64,000 nucleotides of DNA from Pseudomonadota bacterium. Lineage in GTDB: Bacteria > Pseudomonadota > Gammaproteobacteria > Steroidobacterales > Woeseiaceae. Both the position numbers and the translations under genes were made by a program. Below, piece after piece: positions 22,113-31,248 of this stretch. Where the stretch lies: the NCBI GenBank assembly GCA_022567295.1, contig JADFHE010000003.1:38721-102720 (forward strand), written 5' to 3'. The first letter of the stretch is position 1, and each line of letters begins with the position of its first letter. The notes beneath the pieces were generated by a model. That model saw nothing but the letters and a program-made list of their open reading frames with translations. It was not told the origin of the DNA and did not search any database.

Positions 22113-22214
22113 ACGCTATGGATTAGTGCGCGCAATCATAGCCAAGTGCGTCCGCGGTTGCCAGCAGCCTATAGGCAAGTAACAATTGCAGGCAATCGAA
22201 TCCGGGACTTACGA

Positions 22215-23960
22215 ATGAAGACCACAAAAATCGTGCTGACGACGCTGCTCGTATCCATGTCCAGCGCATGCTACGCGAATGCCAGCAGCGAATTTACGAC
22301 ACTATTGGATGAACACTGGGAGTGGCAACTCGCAGCCTCACCGACGATGGCGTCCCAACTGGGCGATCGGCGCTACAACGATCAGTGGCCCGATCAGAAT
22401 TTGCAGGCCATCGAGCAACGCCATGACGACATCCGGGAATTTCTGCGGCGAGCGTACGCTATTGACCGCAAAGATCTCTCAATCGACAACCAGCTGAACT
22501 ACGAACTCTTTAGGCGCCAGCTCGAGGACACAGTTGACGCGTATCAATTCAATAACCACTTGATGCCGTTCTCTCATCGTGGCGGTGTGCAGAATCTCGA
22601 CAACCTGACGAATAGTCTGCGCCTTACAACGGTAGAAGATTTTGAAGACTGGCTGGCACGGATCTCAAAAATCGATGACGTTATCGAACAAACCATCGCG
22701 CTGGCAGAGAAAGGTCGAAAGTCCGGCTACATGGCGCCAAAGATTCTGATGCAGCGCATTCCGAATCAGCTCTCACGGCAGGTCGTCGAAATCGCCACTG
22801 CAAGTCCGTTGTTCATGGCATTCGAAAATATGCCGGATTCCATTTCGGCTGCAGATCGTGAGCGTCTGCGCGCAGACGCGATGGAAATTATCGAGGACAA
22901 AGTGTTGCCGGCGTATCGCAAACTGGATCGCTATTTCAATAAAAAATATCTGCCGGCCGCCCGTGAAAGTGTTGGTTTGTCCGCGCTGCCAAACGGCACG
23001 GCTGCGTACGAATACCTCGTGCGCTCGTTTACTACGACGCGGATGACGCCCGACGACATTCATCGCCTTGGGCTCGAGGAGGTCAAACGCATCCGCGATG
23101 AGATGGCGAAAGTCATTGAAGAAGTCGGATTCGAGGGTAGCTTTCAGGATTTTCTCGTTTTCCTGCGCACTGATCCGCAGTTCTACTACGACACTCCGGA
23201 AGCGCTCTATGAAGCCTATCTTGCAACCAGCAAGCGCATCGATCCTGAGCTCGTGAATCTCTTTGCGACGCTGCCGCGCATGCCTTATGGAGTGAAACCC
23301 ATTCCCGACTCCATCGCAGCGGACACTACGACGGCATATTATTCACGACCGGCGGCCGATGGCAGTCGTGCCGGTATCTACTGGGTAAATCTGTATCGCC
23401 CTGACGTGCGCCCGAAATACGAAATCGAAGTCCTGAGCGTGCATGAAGCGATGCCCGGTCATCATTTACAGATCGCACTGCAACAGGAACTCGGTGACGT
23501 GCCGGATTTTCGTCGCTTTCTCGGTTTCACAGCCTTTGTCGAGGGCTGGGGATTGTACAGCGAGCGGCTGGGTTATGAACTGGGTCTCTATAAAGATCCT
23601 TACTCGCGCTTCGGGCAGCTCACTTACGACATGTGGCGCGCCGTTCGTCTCGTCGTTGACACGGGACTGCATTACAAAGGCTGGACACGGCAGCAGGCGA
23701 TTGATTTCTTCAAGGACAACGCCGCCAAAACCGAACATGACATCATCAATGAGATCGATCGTTACATTGGCAATCCAGGACAGGCCCTGGCGTACAAGAT
23801 CGGGCAACTCAAAATGTTGATGTTGCGAGAACGCGCGGAGCGCCGGCTTGGTGAGAAATTCGATGTCCGGGCGTTCCACGATCAGCTTCTCGGCGCCGGT
23901 GCATTACCGCTAGATCTACTCGAGCAGCGCATGGACGAATGGTTGGCAGACCAACCCTAA
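22215..23960 (+). CDS. Secreted DUF885 zinc-peptidase-like protein
   Basis: DUF885 proteins resemble M32-type zinc carboxypeptidases and are often exported. The start at ATG 22215 (not the track start at 22146) gives 581 aa with a signal peptide (VLTTLLVSMSSACYA); the Cys in SSACYA might be a lipobox, but Tyr after Cys and the late position make ordinary signal peptidase cleavage equally likely. The metal motif HEAMPGHHLQ, around residue 410, is the DUF885 version of HExxH with the extra histidine. Downstream FVEGWGLYSERLGYELG carries the likely third ligand glutamate. GQALAYKIGQLKM near the C-terminus is also typical. It is divergent from gcvT, and its stop overlaps the convergent VOC gene. 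Confidence 0.9.
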   Translation: MKTTKIVLTTLLVSMSSACYANASSEFTTLLDEHWEWQLAASPTMASQLGDRRYNDQWPDQNLQAIEQRHDDIREFLRRAYAIDRKDLSIDNQLNYELFRRQLEDTVDAYQFNNHLMPFSHRGGVQNLDNLTNSLRLTTVEDFEDWLARISKIDDVIEQTIALAEKGRKSGYMAPKILMQRIPNQLSRQVVEIATASPLFMAFENMPDSISAADRERLRADAMEIIEDKVLPAYRKLDRYFNKKYLPAARESVGLSALPNGTAAYEYLVRSFTTTRMTPDDIHRLGLEEVKRIRDEMAKVIEEVGFEGSFQDFLVFLRTDPQFYYDTPEALYEAYLATSKRIDPELVNLFATLPRMPYGVKPIPDSIAADTTTAYYSRPAADGSRAGIYWVNLYRPDVRPKYEIEVLSVHEAMPGHHLQIALQQELGDVPDFRRFLGFTAFVEGWGLYSERLGYELGLYKDPYSRFGQLTYDMWRAVRLVVDTGLHYKGWTRQQAIDFFKDNAAKTEHDIINEIDRYIGNPGQALAYKIGQLKMLMLRERAERRLGEKFDVRAFHDQLLGAGALPLDLLEQRMDEWLADQP

Positions 23961-25063: not shown

Positions 25064-26014
25064 TCAAGCCGGGAATTCCTGCCTCGCTATAGCCGCGCGC
25101 ATTTCGGGCGTCGCCGACGAATCATAGATTTCATCGATACGTCTAACGCGATTCGAAAGTCCCGCACAGTTCGCGATTTGAATATTCAGTCCCGGGCGCG
25201 CATTCATTTCGAGAATGAGGGGACCGCGATCATTGTCGATGACCATGTCCACGCCGAGATAACCCAGCCCCGTCACGTCATAACCTCGAGCGGACGATTC
25301 CAGAATGAAATCCCAGTGCGGGATTTGGAGGTCAGCCACCAGCGCGCCGGTATCAGGATGTTCCTCTACCACCACGTCGTCCAGAACTCCGTTAAGTGTC
25401 TTGCCGGTGGAGATATCCACGCCTACACCGACGGCACCTTGATGCAGATTCGCCTTCCCGTCTGAAGCACGTGTCGGCAAGCGCACCATCGCCATCGCCG
25501 GGTAGCCACGGTACACAACGACGCGGATATCCGGCACGCCCTGATAGCTGACCTCGGCAAACGTCGGATCAAAGCGTACGCAATACTCGATCAACGCCTT
25601 GTCACGGTTACCGCTCAGACTGTACTGGCCACCGACGATGTTTGAAATGTGGTGCAGAATCTCACCTTCCGAAATCAGCATGCCGTTGCTGAGACGAAAA
25701 CTGTCCCGCTTGTGCTGGTTGCGCCCGATCACGACCAGAATGCCGTCACCGCCGCTGCCTCGCGCAGGCTTAATGACGAAGCTGCTTCGATCACCAACCA
25801 TGGCCGCAAAGTTTCTAGCCTCTGCCTGATGCGCTATTACACCGTACAGATCCGGCACAGCCATGCCCGCCGCGAGGGCGAGCTCTTTAGTGAGCACTTT
25901 ATCGTCGACCCTCGGAAACAAACGGCGCGGATTGAGCCGCATGATAAAATCAGTATTGCGCTCGTTGAGCCCGAGGACTCCGATAGCTCGCAGTTTTTTC
26001 GCCGCCAAGACCAT
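25064..26014 (-). CDS. Alpha-L-glutamate ligase-like ATP-grasp protein
   Basis: RimK-related ATP-grasp enzyme of 316 aa. The ATP-grasp elements are visible: FVIKPARGSGGDGILVV (nucleotide lysine and glycine loop), GGQYSLSG, RVVVYRGYPAMAMVRLP and the metal-binding LEMNARPGLNIQIAN. The N-terminus NERNTDFIMRLNPRRLFPRVDDKVLTK is typical of the RimK-related subgroup annotated alpha-L-glutamate ligase-like. It should form an amide bond between an amino group and a carboxylate, substrate unknown. It shares a base with the end of the upstream membrane protein gene, a pairing that recurs in proteobacteria. Confidence 0.85.
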   Translation of the reverse strand: MVLAAKKLRAIGVLGLNERNTDFIMRLNPRRLFPRVDDKVLTKELALAAGMAVPDLYGVIAHQAEARNFAAMVGDRSSFVIKPARGSGGDGILVVIGRNQHKRDSFRLSNGMLISEGEILHHISNIVGGQYSLSGNRDKALIEYCVRFDPTFAEVSYQGVPDIRVVVYRGYPAMAMVRLPTRASDGKANLHQGAVGVGVDISTGKTLNGVLDDVVVEEHPDTGALVADLQIPHWDFILESSARGYDVTGLGYLGVDMVIDNDRGPLILEMNARPGLNIQIANCAGLSNRVRRIDEIYDSSATPEMRAAIARQEFPA

Positions 26015-27534
26015 CAGCCGCGCGCGAGCTCTTTAAAGCGCCGCAGCTCGGTCAGGCGATAACCTGTGTATCGACCCATAAGTATGACGCTTGCCAGAAT
26101 GATCAGCAGCAACTCAGGGAATGTAAAGATTAAGTGTTCAAGCCATGTCATACCCATGAAAGTATAAGCCGCGACGGCGACGACCAGGCTACCGAGCCCG
26201 CCACGGATCGCATCGGCCGGGCCGCGTTCCTCCCATACCACTGACATGCGCTCGATCGTCATCGCGATAATGACCATAGGAAACAGCGCGACAGACAGAC
26301 CGGTTTCCATACCCATGCGATGTGACGTCATACTGATAAACAGCATCAGCATAACGACGACAATAAGAACCGCACTCAGTCGTGGCACCAGTAACAATCG
26401 CAATCGATCCAACAGGAAGCGGATCGTCAGACCCAGCGTCACAAGCAATGTAAACAAAATCAGGCCCCAAAAAAGCTTGGTTTCGCGAAACGCGAGTGCA
26501 ATTAGTACGGGCATGAAAGTACCGAAGGCGTCGATGCCGACAATATTGCGCATGATCACCATGATCAACGCACCAATCGGAATCATCAACAACACTCCGT
26601 ATACCGCCTGCGTTCGAATCGGCAGGCTGTACAGGGAAAAGTCGACGGCGCTGGCACCGCGCTGAGCAACTTGCCTCTCTGCGATCGCCACAGCATCCAC
26701 GTGATTTTCCTGAATTGCAAACTCAACCTGAATTTTGCTGCCGCCCTCGATACTCACGAGCGGCTCGTTGCCACGCCACCACACCAGGAATCGATCGGGC
26801 AAATTTTCTTCGCCGGTCGCCGGATTGAAATACAGCCAGCGATCACCGTCGTGCACTTCGAGCCAGGACACCAGCGTTGCGCTGCGCTGACGGCCCGCCA
26901 GTGGAAATCCGTGCACAATTCGAGCGGGTATGCGTGCAGACGCCAACAACATTGTGACAACGTCGACGAAGTCAGAATCCATGGAAACATCGGAAAGCAG
27001 TAACTCGACGTTCGGATCTGGAGAAGGGTCGTTCATTCGGCGCAGCAATTCGGTAGTAAATGAAGCCGTGTCTGCAGAGTGATCATTGACGTCATCGACG
27101 AGCACTTCGACAGCGGTGTTCATAGGCTCATTGATTACCGGCAGCGGCGGAAACGGCGGCGTCGTATCCGACTCGTCGACACTATCGTCTTCGTAAACGG
27201 ATATACGGTAGTAAATCCTCTGCTCGCCATCGGCGCGTCGAATGGCCCATTGTGCTTCGCGACCGCCACTGCCGTAGTTCAGACTAAAGCCGTAACCGCG
27301 TGACACGGAGTTCTCATTGAGCATTCGAAATCCCGGCGTCAAAGTCGGTACGTGTAACTGCACTTTAATTGATCCCGGACCGCTGTCGAAACTGATGGCG
27401 GACTCGATCGTCCACACAGGCTTTTCCTGATCCTCGGTCAACGGAAATCCCAGTACCTGCCATTTATAGAAAAAGACAGACAACCCAATGACCGACAGCA
27501 ATGCCGCCAAACCATATACGTAACCGTGCTTCAT
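26014..27534 (-). CDS. Inactive-transglutaminase 7-TM membrane protein (UUP1 family)
   Basis: 506-aa inner-membrane protein. An N-terminal anchor (GLAALLSVIGLSVFFYKW) is followed by a periplasmic region of about 280 residues with a transglutaminase-like fold. In that region the catalytic cysteine is not evident (LLASARIPARIVHGFPLAGRQRSATLVSWLEVHDGDRWLYFNP). About seven hydrophobic helices then run to the C-terminus. The family is known as inactive transglutaminase fused to seven TM helices. It is encoded directly upstream of the ATP-grasp ligase with which it is regularly paired. Relatives often have a retropepsin-like protease neighbour; none is visible here. The function is not established. 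Confidence 0.85.
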   Translation of the reverse strand: MKHGYVYGLAALLSVIGLSVFFYKWQVLGFPLTEDQEKPVWTIESAISFDSGPGSIKVQLHVPTLTPGFRMLNENSVSRGYGFSLNYGSGGREAQWAIRRADGEQRIYYRISVYEDDSVDESDTTPPFPPLPVINEPMNTAVEVLVDDVNDHSADTASFTTELLRRMNDPSPDPNVELLLSDVSMDSDFVDVVTMLLASARIPARIVHGFPLAGRQRSATLVSWLEVHDGDRWLYFNPATGEENLPDRFLVWWRGNEPLVSIEGGSKIQVEFAIQENHVDAVAIAERQVAQRGASAVDFSLYSLPIRTQAVYGVLLMIPIGALIMVIMRNIVGIDAFGTFMPVLIALAFRETKLFWGLILFTLLVTLGLTIRFLLDRLRLLLVPRLSAVLIVVVMLMLFISMTSHRMGMETGLSVALFPMVIIAMTIERMSVVWEERGPADAIRGGLGSLVVAVAAYTFMGMTWLEHLIFTFPELLLIILASVILMGRYTGYRLTELRRFKELARG

Positions 27535-27550: not shown

Positions 27551-28705
27551 TTAGTTGACGCCCAGCGCGACCTTAACGGCGCGTTCTCTGATCGGCCCGC
27601 TACGATTGAAGAACCACATGCCCACCGATCTTATTCTTTCCACAACCGTGGAGTCTGTCGCAAACAGGCGGTTGAGGCCAGTCATGAAGTGCAACATTGT
27701 TAAATTGGCGCCCTTGCGCGCGCGCTCATAGCGGCGCAGGACAGGCCTGTCTCCAGGGTGCAGCCCGGCGCCAATCGCCGCATCAATTACGCGCGCAAGT
27801 TCACCCGCATCCTGCAACCCAAGGTTCGCGCCCTGCCCGGCTAATGGATGAATCGAATGTGCAGCATCCCCTATCAATGCCAAACCCGGTTGCACATAAT
27901 CCCTGGCATGCTGCGCACAAAGCGGAAACGCGCCTTTCGGACCTGCGACCGTCAATTCACCAAGAACCCCATCGGACGCGTCGCTCAACATGCGACCCAG
28001 TGCCTCGTCTGACGCGTCCAATGCCATTTCTGCAATATCAGGCGTCGTCGACCAGACGACAGAAATGCGACCATCCGCCAGTGGCAACATACCGAGTGGT
28101 CCATCGCGCAAGAATCTCTGCCACGCCGTCGCATTGTGCTCGCGTTGCGTTTCCAGATGCGTGACCAGGGCCATCTGCCGGTACGGCCATCGGTGCGTCC
28201 TGATGCCTGCCAGCTCACGTACGAAAGAACGAGCACCATCAGCACCGATAACCAGATCTGCTGCCGGCAGGACCTCGATCTGCGTCTCGAATCGCAATGC
28301 AACAGTCGTTTTATCCAGCACCTCCAATAAGGCGTGCTGCAACAGCACGTTTTCGACAATGAAACCCAACTGCGGTACCGCGAATTCGGCTGCATTGAAG
28401 CGCAATGCAGATCCGCTGTCAGGCGTATCATTTTCATCCCACACGGTCATGCACTGGTACGGTGAAACGCGCGCATCTTCTACGCCCGTCCATGCGCCGA
28501 CCGAATCCAGTAGCGCAGCGGAGCCGTTGGCAATAGCCGATACGCGAAGTGAAACGTCATCGTCAGCAGAAAAGACGGGGCGCTTTGCCGCGTCGATCAC
28601 GGTGATGTCCAGAGCGTCAGATTGATGCCCTTCAGCCAGCAAGGCCGCAAGCGTCAGCCCGGTAATTCCACCGCCGACGATGATGATTTTGAAGCGCGCC
28701 TTCAT
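27551..28705 (-). CDS. ubiI: FAD-dependent ubiquinone-ring hydroxylase, UbiI type
   Basis: Flavoprotein monooxygenase of the UbiH/UbiF/COQ6 family acting on the aromatic ring of ubiquinone precursors. The FAD dinucleotide fold is IIIVGGGITGLTLA; the middle motif is GADGARSFVRELAGI, and the second FAD motif is GDAAHSIHPLAGQGANLGLQDAGEL. That last version is the UbiI/UbiF-type wording, whereas the neighbouring gene has the UbiH wording. The order pepP-ubiH-ubiI is as in E. coli. Its start overlaps the ubiH stop by four bases. Which carbon (C5) it hydroxylates is inferred from synteny. Confidence 0.85.
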   Translation of the reverse strand: MKARFKIIIVGGGITGLTLAALLAEGHQSDALDITVIDAAKRPVFSADDDVSLRVSAIANGSAALLDSVGAWTGVEDARVSPYQCMTVWDENDTPDSGSALRFNAAEFAVPQLGFIVENVLLQHALLEVLDKTTVALRFETQIEVLPAADLVIGADGARSFVRELAGIRTHRWPYRQMALVTHLETQREHNATAWQRFLRDGPLGMLPLADGRISVVWSTTPDIAEMALDASDEALGRMLSDASDGVLGELTVAGPKGAFPLCAQHARDYVQPGLALIGDAAHSIHPLAGQGANLGLQDAGELARVIDAAIGAGLHPGDRPVLRRYERARKGANLTMLHFMTGLNRLFATDSTVVERIRSVGMWFFNRSGPIRERAVKVALGVN

Positions 28706-29934
28706 CGGATCGGCATACCACGTGACAAGCGAGGTAACTCACCGGCGAGACCCATCGTATGCTTTGCAAATAGCGAGCGAACTCCGGGTATCAAGTCGAA
28801 ACCGAGCATGCCGATATTTCGCAGCGTCCGTAAACCCGGGCGTGTACTACCGAACAGACGCACGAGATTGTCCGTGAAGTGCACCAGCTTTTTCTGATCC
28901 GAACGACGCCACCTTGCGTACCGGTCCAGCAATTGCGAAGCACCCGGATCTAATTCGTCCGACTGTCCATCAGCAATGCAGTCGCACAGTGCGGCTACAT
29001 CACGCATACCGAGGTTGAAACCCTGGGCCGAAACAGGATGTAGGCCGTGGGCCGAATTACCGATCAACACACTTCGAGTTGCCGTCATTCGCACCGCTTT
29101 GCTTAATACCAACGGATACGCAACTCGTTGACCAACACGAGAAAATTTCCCCAGACGAAAACCGAACTCCTGCTGAATCTCAGCCAGAAATTCGTCGTCA
29201 TCCAGTCCAAGGACCCGGTCTGCGTCGTCCTCTGAAACAGTCCAGACAAATGCTGCGCGATCATCAGCAATCGGCAGAATCGCCAATGGACCCTGCGGGG
29301 TAAAGCGCTCGTATGCACGATGATCCAGATTCTTCTCGGGCAGGAGATTGCCAATGACCGCGCACTGTCCATACTCGCGGCGCTGCGCCGATATGCCCAT
29401 CATCTCGCGAACTGCAGAATTTGCTCCATCCGCTGCGACCAGCAGTTTACACGTTAGCGTTTGTTTGCCATCGCCGGACTTAAGTGTCGCGGCTGCCTGG
29501 TCGGGTCCCAGCTCGATCGCCTCAATACGCGCGGGGCAAAACACATTTACGCCGACGACAGCATCGAGCTTCGATTGCAGCACCTCGCCCAGTACGCGAT
29601 TGATAACGACGTAGCCGAGCGCATCGATTCCCTGTTCTTCAGCGTCGATATGAGAGAAACCGAAACGACCTTTGTCGGAAATATGAATTGCCCTGATCGG
29701 CGTCGAAGCAGCGACGACTTCATTCCAAATGCCCATCGCTTCAAACATGCGTTGCGTGCTTCTCGACAATGTCGTCGACCGATCATCAAAACTGGGCTGC
29801 AGTCTCTGCTTGCGAGCAACGGCCTCAACAACGGCAATTTGCAGTCCGAGCGGTACCAGCGCAAGCGCGAGGCTCGTTCCAATCATTCCGCCACCGGCGA
29901 TGACGATATCGTAAGTGTCTTTCTTAGATTTCAT
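28702..29934 (-). CDS. ubiH: 2-octaprenyl-6-methoxyphenol hydroxylase UbiH
   Basis: Second paralogous flavin hydroxylase of ubiquinone synthesis, expected to act at ring C1. The FAD site is IVIAGGGMIGTSLALAL; GADGANSAVREMMGI-like (ADGANSAVREMMG) and GNSAHGLHPVSAQGFNLGMRDVAAL follow, the latter matching UbiH. It lies between pepP (three-base gap) and ubiI, the conserved gammaproteobacterial order. Length 410 aa. With Coq7 at 36.5 kb all three ring hydroxylases are in this window. Confidence 0.88.
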   Translation of the reverse strand: MKSKKDTYDIVIAGGGMIGTSLALALVPLGLQIAVVEAVARKQRLQPSFDDRSTTLSRSTQRMFEAMGIWNEVVAASTPIRAIHISDKGRFGFSHIDAEEQGIDALGYVVINRVLGEVLQSKLDAVVGVNVFCPARIEAIELGPDQAAATLKSGDGKQTLTCKLLVAADGANSAVREMMGISAQRREYGQCAVIGNLLPEKNLDHRAYERFTPQGPLAILPIADDRAAFVWTVSEDDADRVLGLDDDEFLAEIQQEFGFRLGKFSRVGQRVAYPLVLSKAVRMTATRSVLIGNSAHGLHPVSAQGFNLGMRDVAALCDCIADGQSDELDPGASQLLDRYARWRRSDQKKLVHFTDNLVRLFGSTRPGLRTLRNIGMLGFDLIPGVRSLFAKHTMGLAGELPRLSRGMPIR

Positions 29935-29937
29935 TGT

Positions 29938-31248
29938 TTATGTGGACGTGCTGCCCATTAAGGCCTCAATATCATCGGGGTCCCTCACCAGCCCTTTGCT
30001 CAGTACGTCCGGCCCGTTATTTGTCACAGCAACATCGTCTTCAATGCGAATTCCGATGTTGCGAAACTTTTTCGGAACCTTGCGATTGTTGTTGATGTAG
30101 ATACCGGGCTCCACGGTCGTTACCATCCCCGTTTCGAGCATGCGCCACTCGTCACCCACTTTATAATCACCAACGTCATGCACATCCATGCCAATCCAGT
30201 GCCCAGTACGGTGCATGTAGAACTGCTGATAAGCACCATCCCTGATCAGCTTTGGCAGTGAGCCGTCGAGCAAACCGAGATTTTTGAGGCCCTTGGTAAT
30301 GACTCTGACCGCTGCGTCGTGCGGCTCATTCCAGTGATTGCCGACGACAGTCTTGTCAATCGCTGCCTGCTGCGCCTCAAGCACGATCTCGTATACCGCG
30401 CGTTGTTCGGAAGTGAAGCGCCCATTGATCGGAAATGTGCGCGTGATGTCAGAGGCGTAGTAATCAAACTCACAACCCGCATCGATCAACAGCAGGTCGC
30501 CATCCTTCAGTTCGGCATTATTTTCGACGTAGTGCAGGATGCAGGCGTTCGCGCCCCCGCCAACGATCGGGCTGTAGGAAACCCAGGCATCGTTGTGGCG
30601 AAACTCATGACGAAACTCAGCCTCAACCTCATATTCGTACATGCCCGGGCGCGTGATTCTCATCGCTCGCTTGTGCGCCTCGACGGCTACTTTGGCCGAC
30701 TTGCGCATCGCCGATAATTCGCCACGACTCTTGTACAGCCGCATGTCGTGCAACAAATGATCGAGTGCCACAAACTCCTGCGGGGTGTGGACACCGTGTG
30801 ACAATTTCGAGCGTAGCGTATTGATCCACTCAGCTATGCGGGCATCAAACTCTGAGTACATACCCATCGTGTAATAAACCCGACTGCAGGACTCCATGAT
30901 CCCAGGCAGGATGTCGTCGAGATCGTCAATCGGAAACGCGTCGTCCGCGCCATAGTTTTCTACTGCGCCCGCCTGGCCGGCGCGCAGACCGTCCCACAGC
31001 TCCCTTTTTGGGTCTTTTTCGCGACAGAACAGCAAGTATTCACCGTTCGCCCGTCCGGGTACCAGCACCGCTACTGCCTCAGGTTCCGCGAAACCGGTCA
31101 GATAGTAGAAATCGCTGTCCTGACGGAAACGATACTCAACGTCTCGGCTGCGCGTTCTGACCGGAGCAGAAGGCAAAATCACGATGCCGCCCGGACCGAC
31201 CATACGCATCAGCTGCCTACGCCGCTTTTCGAATTCCCTGCTATTCAT
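29938..31248 (-). CDS. pepP: Xaa-Pro aminopeptidase P
   Basis: Dinuclear-metal 'pita-bread' aminopeptidase that removes an N-terminal residue preceding proline. The metal ligands are visible in order: LLIDAGCEFDYYASDITRTF (two Asp), HRTGHWIGMDVHD (His), TTVEPGIYI (Glu) and GIRIEDDVAV (Glu). The N-terminal creatinase-like domain starts RRRQLMRMVGPGGIVILPSAP. Length 436 aa matches E. coli PepP. Its ATG overlaps the final TGA of the ygfB remnant, keeping the ancestral ygfB-pepP coupling. Confidence 0.94.
   Translation of the reverse strand: MNSREFEKRRRQLMRMVGPGGIVILPSAPVRTRSRDVEYRFRQDSDFYYLTGFAEPEAVAVLVPGRANGEYLLFCREKDPKRELWDGLRAGQAGAVENYGADDAFPIDDLDDILPGIMESCSRVYYTMGMYSEFDARIAEWINTLRSKLSHGVHTPQEFVALDHLLHDMRLYKSRGELSAMRKSAKVAVEAHKRAMRITRPGMYEYEVEAEFRHEFRHNDAWVSYSPIVGGGANACILHYVENNAELKDGDLLLIDAGCEFDYYASDITRTFPINGRFTSEQRAVYEIVLEAQQAAIDKTVVGNHWNEPHDAAVRVITKGLKNLGLLDGSLPKLIRDGAYQQFYMHRTGHWIGMDVHDVGDYKVGDEWRMLETGMVTTVEPGIYINNNRKVPKKFRNIGIRIEDDVAVTNNGPDVLSKGLVRDPDDIEALMGSTST

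Follow-up and report, generated by a model that had tools for sequence, protein, structure and literature searches.

The locus studied here is a pair of minus-strand genes in a 64,000-nt stretch of DNA (the window) from a metagenome-assembled genome (MAG) of the Woeseiaceae, and on homology it is identified as rloB and rloC, counterparts of the genes of the same name in the rloABC operon of Pseudomonas aeruginosa. The first gene, rloB (26014..27534), encodes a 506-aa protein with a transmembrane (TM) helix, a periplasmic inactive transglutaminase-like domain and a seven-helix (7TM) membrane domain (PF14400, PF14402), and the second, rloC (25064..26014), encodes a 316-aa ATP-grasp alpha-L-glutamate ligase-like protein of the RimK fold (TIGR02291, PF14397). 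The first-pass annotation had described an ATP-grasp ligase and an inactive-transglutaminase membrane protein whose genes share a base. Both points hold: the family assignments are backed by Pfam and TIGRFAM scores far above chance, and the genes overlap by exactly one base, the A of TGA/ATG in ggcTGATGgtc. Its description of the pair as having no known function is outdated, as genetic work on rloABC exists for P. aeruginosa (PMC12239564).

The pair closes a run of genes on the same strand that begins with a pepP-like Xaa-Pro aminopeptidase (29938..31248, minus strand; PF00557 and PF05195) and continues with an ubiH-like FAD hydroxylase (28702..29934, minus strand; PF01494, E 2e-33) and a hydroxylase of the UbiH/UbiF/VisC family, ubiI (27551..28705, minus strand; TIGR01988, 371 bits), which ends 16 bp upstream of rloB. 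Most related genomes keep the order pepP-ubiH-ubiI-rloB-rloC, and gcvTHP flanks the locus at its other end. Searches of PHROGs and PADLOC gave no match that would indicate a phage or defence origin, and a scan for promoters and terminators gave counts not above those in shuffled sequence. Positions 22146-23960 of the window encode a DUF885 protein that appears to have a signal peptide; its gene is convergent with rloC and adjoins it in most of the Woeseiaceae loci read. In two genomes only, an ORF of about 1090 aa lies between rloC and the DUF885 gene (L120:1932-5201 and L123:2092-5373). In a 1.5-Mb member of the genus (G004, L227:9554-9873), ubiI and gcvT are adjacent, and the rloBC, XRE-cupin, glyoxalase and DUF885 genes are all missing from the site.

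RloC scored 430.5 bits against TIGR02291 ('alpha-L-glutamate ligase-like protein'; cut-off 314.2) and matched PF14397 with an E-value of 1e-87. Its AlphaFold2 (AF2) model (pLDDT 93.6) had RimK (5zct, E 1.1e-11) as the best match in the PDB, with ArgX/LysX and cyanophycin synthetase ranking behind; PsnB was also among the similar folds. Residues D256, E269 and N271 of RloC align with D248, E260 and N262 of RimK, the residues that bind Mg-ATP, and none of the 48 homologues differs at these positions. This is best explained by RloC being a catalytically intact RimK-like ligase. The likeness extends to the fold only, and RimK proper was rejected as an identification, the scores being 23 bits for NF007764 (cut-off 331) and 49 bits for TIGR00768 (cut-off 143).

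RloB was recovered by both of its Pfam families above the gathering score (PF14400, 165 bits, E 2e-48; PF14402, 341 bits, E 4e-102), and aligned end to end with the NCBI RloB model NF052267 at 498 bits, which is below the narrow, Pseudomonas-type cut-off of 900. In the AF2 model (pLDDT 84.5) an N-terminal TM helix is formed by residues 3-28 (27451..27528, minus strand), in agreement with the hydropathy of this segment. It is followed by the transglutaminase-like domain (residues ~37-280; 26695..27426, minus strand), recognized by a Foldseek match to 3isr (E 2e-9), in which the catalytic triad is lost. That is, the window protein contains no cysteine at all, and in the triad columns of close homologues neither the cysteine (0/97) nor the histidine (0/97) was found, so that the domain is, judged from these residues, inactive. 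The membrane domain (residues ~306-487; 26074..26619, minus strand) is the most conserved part of the protein and carries many invariant charged residues (R329, R372, R385, E428, R429 and E436, with R493, E496 and R499 just behind it). This concentration of charged invariant residues suggests that RloB probably does its work through the membrane half and not through the dead enzyme domain. Among solved structures, no relative of RloB was found by sequence, and by fold only the transglutaminase-like domain had counterparts; the 7TM domain showed no counterpart and no likeness to a transporter in the fold search.

A ligase working with a small polytopic membrane subunit suggests a parallel with the poly-gamma-glutamate synthase PgsBC/CapBC. 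The ligase PgsB, though, has a Mur-type fold, which differs from that of RloC. Homology of the RloB 7TM domain with PgsC/CapC (PF14102) was considered and not adopted. By eye the order of motifs is alike, and the best hhalign comparison gave E 0.034 and a score of 20.9, against scores of up to 16.3 for unrelated membrane profiles and 19.4 for reversed PgsC, and in HMM searches the ranks interleaved with those of the controls; the resemblance is therefore not separated from the controls and is kept as a lead only. At L214:4094-7333 and L215:5788-9009 lie genes for proteins of ~1075 aa in which a PgsC-like (PF14102) domain occurs twice in tandem; three more operon genes follow.

The distribution of the two genes was examined in 276 Gammaproteobacteria genomes, a sample made up of genomes at least 90% complete plus that of the window. 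Those with a full-length RloB and those with an RloC above the cut-off were the same 46 of the 276, and the genes were adjacent in all 46, which means that rloB and rloC do not occur independently. The tight linkage proposed earlier is thereby borne out, and the pattern that had been named as its refutation, independent occurrence of the two genes in most genomes, was contradicted by this analysis.

In P. aeruginosa the rloABC operon was described in 2025 in mBio (PMC12239564). RloA is a secreted retropepsin that cuts chains of at least eight glutamates, and when all three RloA proteases are lost, growth in low salt suffers, as do antibiotic resistance, biofilm and cell shape. In the rloA triple mutant, removal of either rloB or rloC rescued low-salt growth fully and the other defects partly (PMC12239564). 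No periplasmic poly-Glu protein was found encoded in the genome, and deletion of rimB showed no genetic interaction with the rloA mutants (PMC12239564). In Shewanella vesiculosa an RloB homologue affects vesicle production (PMC12096838). The window pair resembles this operon in its orthologous RloB and RloC families, the order B-C, the inactive transglutaminase domain and the retained ligase residues, and differs from it in lacking RloA, as do the 73 genomes of the genus described below, and in its position behind pepP-ubiH-ubiI and near gcvTHP. The effects on hypo-osmotic tolerance, biofilm and cell shape are published for P. aeruginosa rloABC only (PMC12239564). With the RimBK system the locus shares the ATP-grasp ligase fold, and RimB is a cytosolic cousin of RloA (PMC11957791); it is unlike RimBK in that RloC is not RimK, that RimBK has no RloB, and that rimB-M14-rimK forms a separate operon in this family.

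The gene pair as such is already known, and the twist on what was a correct observation is the extent to which the protease is missing. No PF05618 protease was found in the window or in its own genome (a MAG, ~86% complete), and neither RimB nor RimK was seen in that genome. Outside the window's order, PF05618 was present in every RloBC genome of the class sample (43/43). Leaving out the window's own genome, a PF05618 gene adjoins rloB in 41 of 45 RloBC genomes, the four exceptions being G207 and G058, from the window's order, G161, and G219, the last with none seen beside rloB. A hydrophobic leader is present in nearly all of the copies read that are linked to rloB, and in most families such an RloA lies upstream of rloB. 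The window's genus, in which the members with names are Woeseiaceae, was sampled with 73 genomes, of which about half contain PF05618 copies. All 38 hit places were read and all proved to be of the RimB type, which leaves no hidden RloA among the hits in these genomes; with 31 genomes at completeness of at least 90% and contamination of at most 5%, the count for RloA was 0/31. These copies bear a GWREW signature, lack a leader (and are predicted to be cytosolic) and typically belong to a rimB-M14-rimK operon. One is split over two contigs, with the signature in one half only, and the copy of G742 looks decayed. In G034, a Woeseiaceae genome, the rimB-M14-rimK operon comes immediately after rloC (L122:7323-9734), and in the other genomes read it is located elsewhere.

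In a quick maximum-likelihood tree of RloB, the Woeseiaceae sequences form one clade (support 99) nested within a group that includes RloA-bearing relatives: G038, G039, G040 and G053 keep RloA upstream, and G037, G052 and G058 do not have it. Nesting among RloA-bearing relatives indicates that RloA was lost secondarily, and the simplest reading of this pattern would be a loss in more than one step. The absence of the protease partner noted in the first-pass annotation thus extends from the window to its own genome and, as RloA type, to all 73 genomes of the genus, and the 'reduced version' of the system that it suggested is a secondary, lineage-wide condition, not a peculiarity of the window. 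Woeseiaceae are characteristic bacteria of marine sediments (PMC7082342), and RloA may be dispensable to them owing to steady salinity; this is only a suggestion, because many other marine bacteria keep RloA.

A second group of loci bears on what the pair does. Six genomes (L157-L162) encode divergent homologues, here RloB′ and RloC′, with about 27% and 38% identity, respectively, to the window proteins. They share both core families and their order with the window, the RloB′-RloC′ genes being followed by that of a TPR-type protein in all six (an assignment tested with Pfam in L157 and L160 and read in the other four). In L161 (3476-5992) RloB′ and RloC′ are naturally fused in a single 838-aa ORF. 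The differences are that the Cys-His-Asp triad of RloB′ is intact in 6/6 (SCNGK, SHQWVE or THQWVE, and WVPFD), that no retropepsin is adjacent to RloB′-RloC′ at any of the six loci, and that envelope-type genes are added: besides the TPR gene, a gene for an outer-membrane-barrel-like protein follows it in five of the six (L157-L160 and L162), L161 having no adjacent barrel. The barrel candidate of L160 matched Pfam OMP_b-brl with E 6e-5, below the cut-off, and its counterpart in L157 had no Pfam match. Judging from this distribution, it looks as if, in the Rlo branch, a separate retropepsin took over the processing in the periplasm that an active transglutaminase domain had carried out before.

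The reading that we prefer, and that we hold to be about evenly balanced between right and wrong, is that the window carries an rloBC locus minus rloA, in which RloC is a glutamate ligase, RloB the membrane partner that hands its product to the periplasm, and trimming by RloA has been dropped. On the cytoplasmic side of the inner membrane, RloC would join glutamates into a free chain or attach them to an acceptor. Its obligate partner would be RloB: RloC would dock on the conserved 7TM domain, which would pass the product on, or present it, to the periplasm, and there the dead transglutaminase domain would hold it; peptide binding by the periplasmic domain fits this arrangement. In most relatives the secreted retropepsin RloA would then trim the chain, a step dropped in the Woeseiaceae clade, and in P. 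aeruginosa without RloA an untrimmed anionic product would be left that is harmful in low salt. The protein identities, the strict pairing, the intact ligase residues, the dead transglutaminase domain and the secondary, lineage-wide loss of RloA are shown by the analysis; the nature of the product, its passage through the membrane and its retention by the transglutaminase domain we infer. In favour of the reading as a whole are the fold of RloC, closest to that of the poly-alpha-L-glutamate synthetase RimK, the invariant residues, the 46/46 pairing, the fusion in L161, the leader of RloA, the lack of an RloA-type gene in the 73 genomes and the tree. Rescue of the rloA triple mutant by deletion of rloB or rloC is as predicted for an RloBC product that RloA degrades (PMC12239564), and the continuation of the divergent operon with TPR and barrel-like genes fits an exported product.

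Points against this reading are that no solved transporter resembles the 7TM domain and that its suspected link to PgsC did not hold against controls. The substrate modified by RloC could also be a protein or a lipid, RloB acting only as a sensor. In one alternative scheme RloB would be a receptor, not an exporter: its dead transglutaminase domain would respond to a peptide or wall fragment in the periplasm by switching RloC, and RloC would glutamylate a cytosolic target. Dead enzyme domains often act as binding domains, RloB keeps the transglutaminase fold despite the loss of the triad, and the known target of RimK, a ribosomal protein, is cytosolic (PMC11957791). Against this scheme, the secreted, poly-Glu-cleaving RloA places the product outside the cytosol, and no genetic interaction is seen between rimB deletion and the rloA mutants (PMC12239564); the TPR and barrel-like genes of the divergent branch also argue against it, and we regard RloB as receptor as somewhat unlikely. 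Slightly less probable still, in our judgement, is that the product of RloBC is not a glutamate chain but, for instance, contains a different amino acid or is a sugar- or lipid-linked amide. The Pfam name of the ligase family PF14397, 'sugar-transfer associated', and the presence of ArgX/LysX, cyanophycin synthetase and PsnB among the similar folds would allow for it, whereas the closest solved structure is RimK and the substrate cut by RloA is poly-Glu (PMC12239564).

The system would not be reduced if another peptidase stood in for RloA. Examples would be the secreted DUF885 protein encoded next to rloC and the product of the RimB operon, and a peptidase unrelated to RloA could also fill the role. 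The DUF885 gene adjoins rloC in most of the Woeseiaceae loci read, the G004 site lacks both DUF885 and rloBC, and rimB-M14-rimK directly follows rloC in G034. The DUF885 gene, however, is on the opposite strand and its family has no named function, and RimB is predicted to be cytosolic, with its operon located elsewhere in other genomes or undetected, the latter in G021 and G026, both 100% complete, and in the genome of the window. Such a replacement appears the least probable of these alternatives, and distinctly unlikely.

A whole family of dominant seafloor bacteria carries RloBC without RloA, a genotype that is harmful to P. aeruginosa in low salt. Since the Woeseiaceae live with that genotype, they offer a natural test of the RloBC product and of the need for RloA. 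The intact-triad branch with its TPR and barrel-like genes provides a second, independent handle on the product, and could prove more valuable than the lead that started the analysis. A wider generalization, which we put forward tentatively and consider rather doubtful, is that RloBC-type loci represent an unrecognised Gram-negative envelope system that makes and moves a glutamate polymer. In its ancestral-looking form, an active transglutaminase would be combined with a TPR scaffold in the periplasm and a barrel in the outer membrane, a second form would use a secreted retropepsin instead of the active transglutaminase, and in the Woeseiaceae form both processing activities would be lost and the product left untrimmed.

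More distant RloB-like proteins, with no rloC beside them, were seen at seven further loci (L150-L156). The triad cysteine is lost in those of them that were read in this respect (L151-L153, L155 and L156). A gene of the RloA type lies close to the RloB-like gene in L151-L154 and further off in L155, and L153 also has a RimK nearby.
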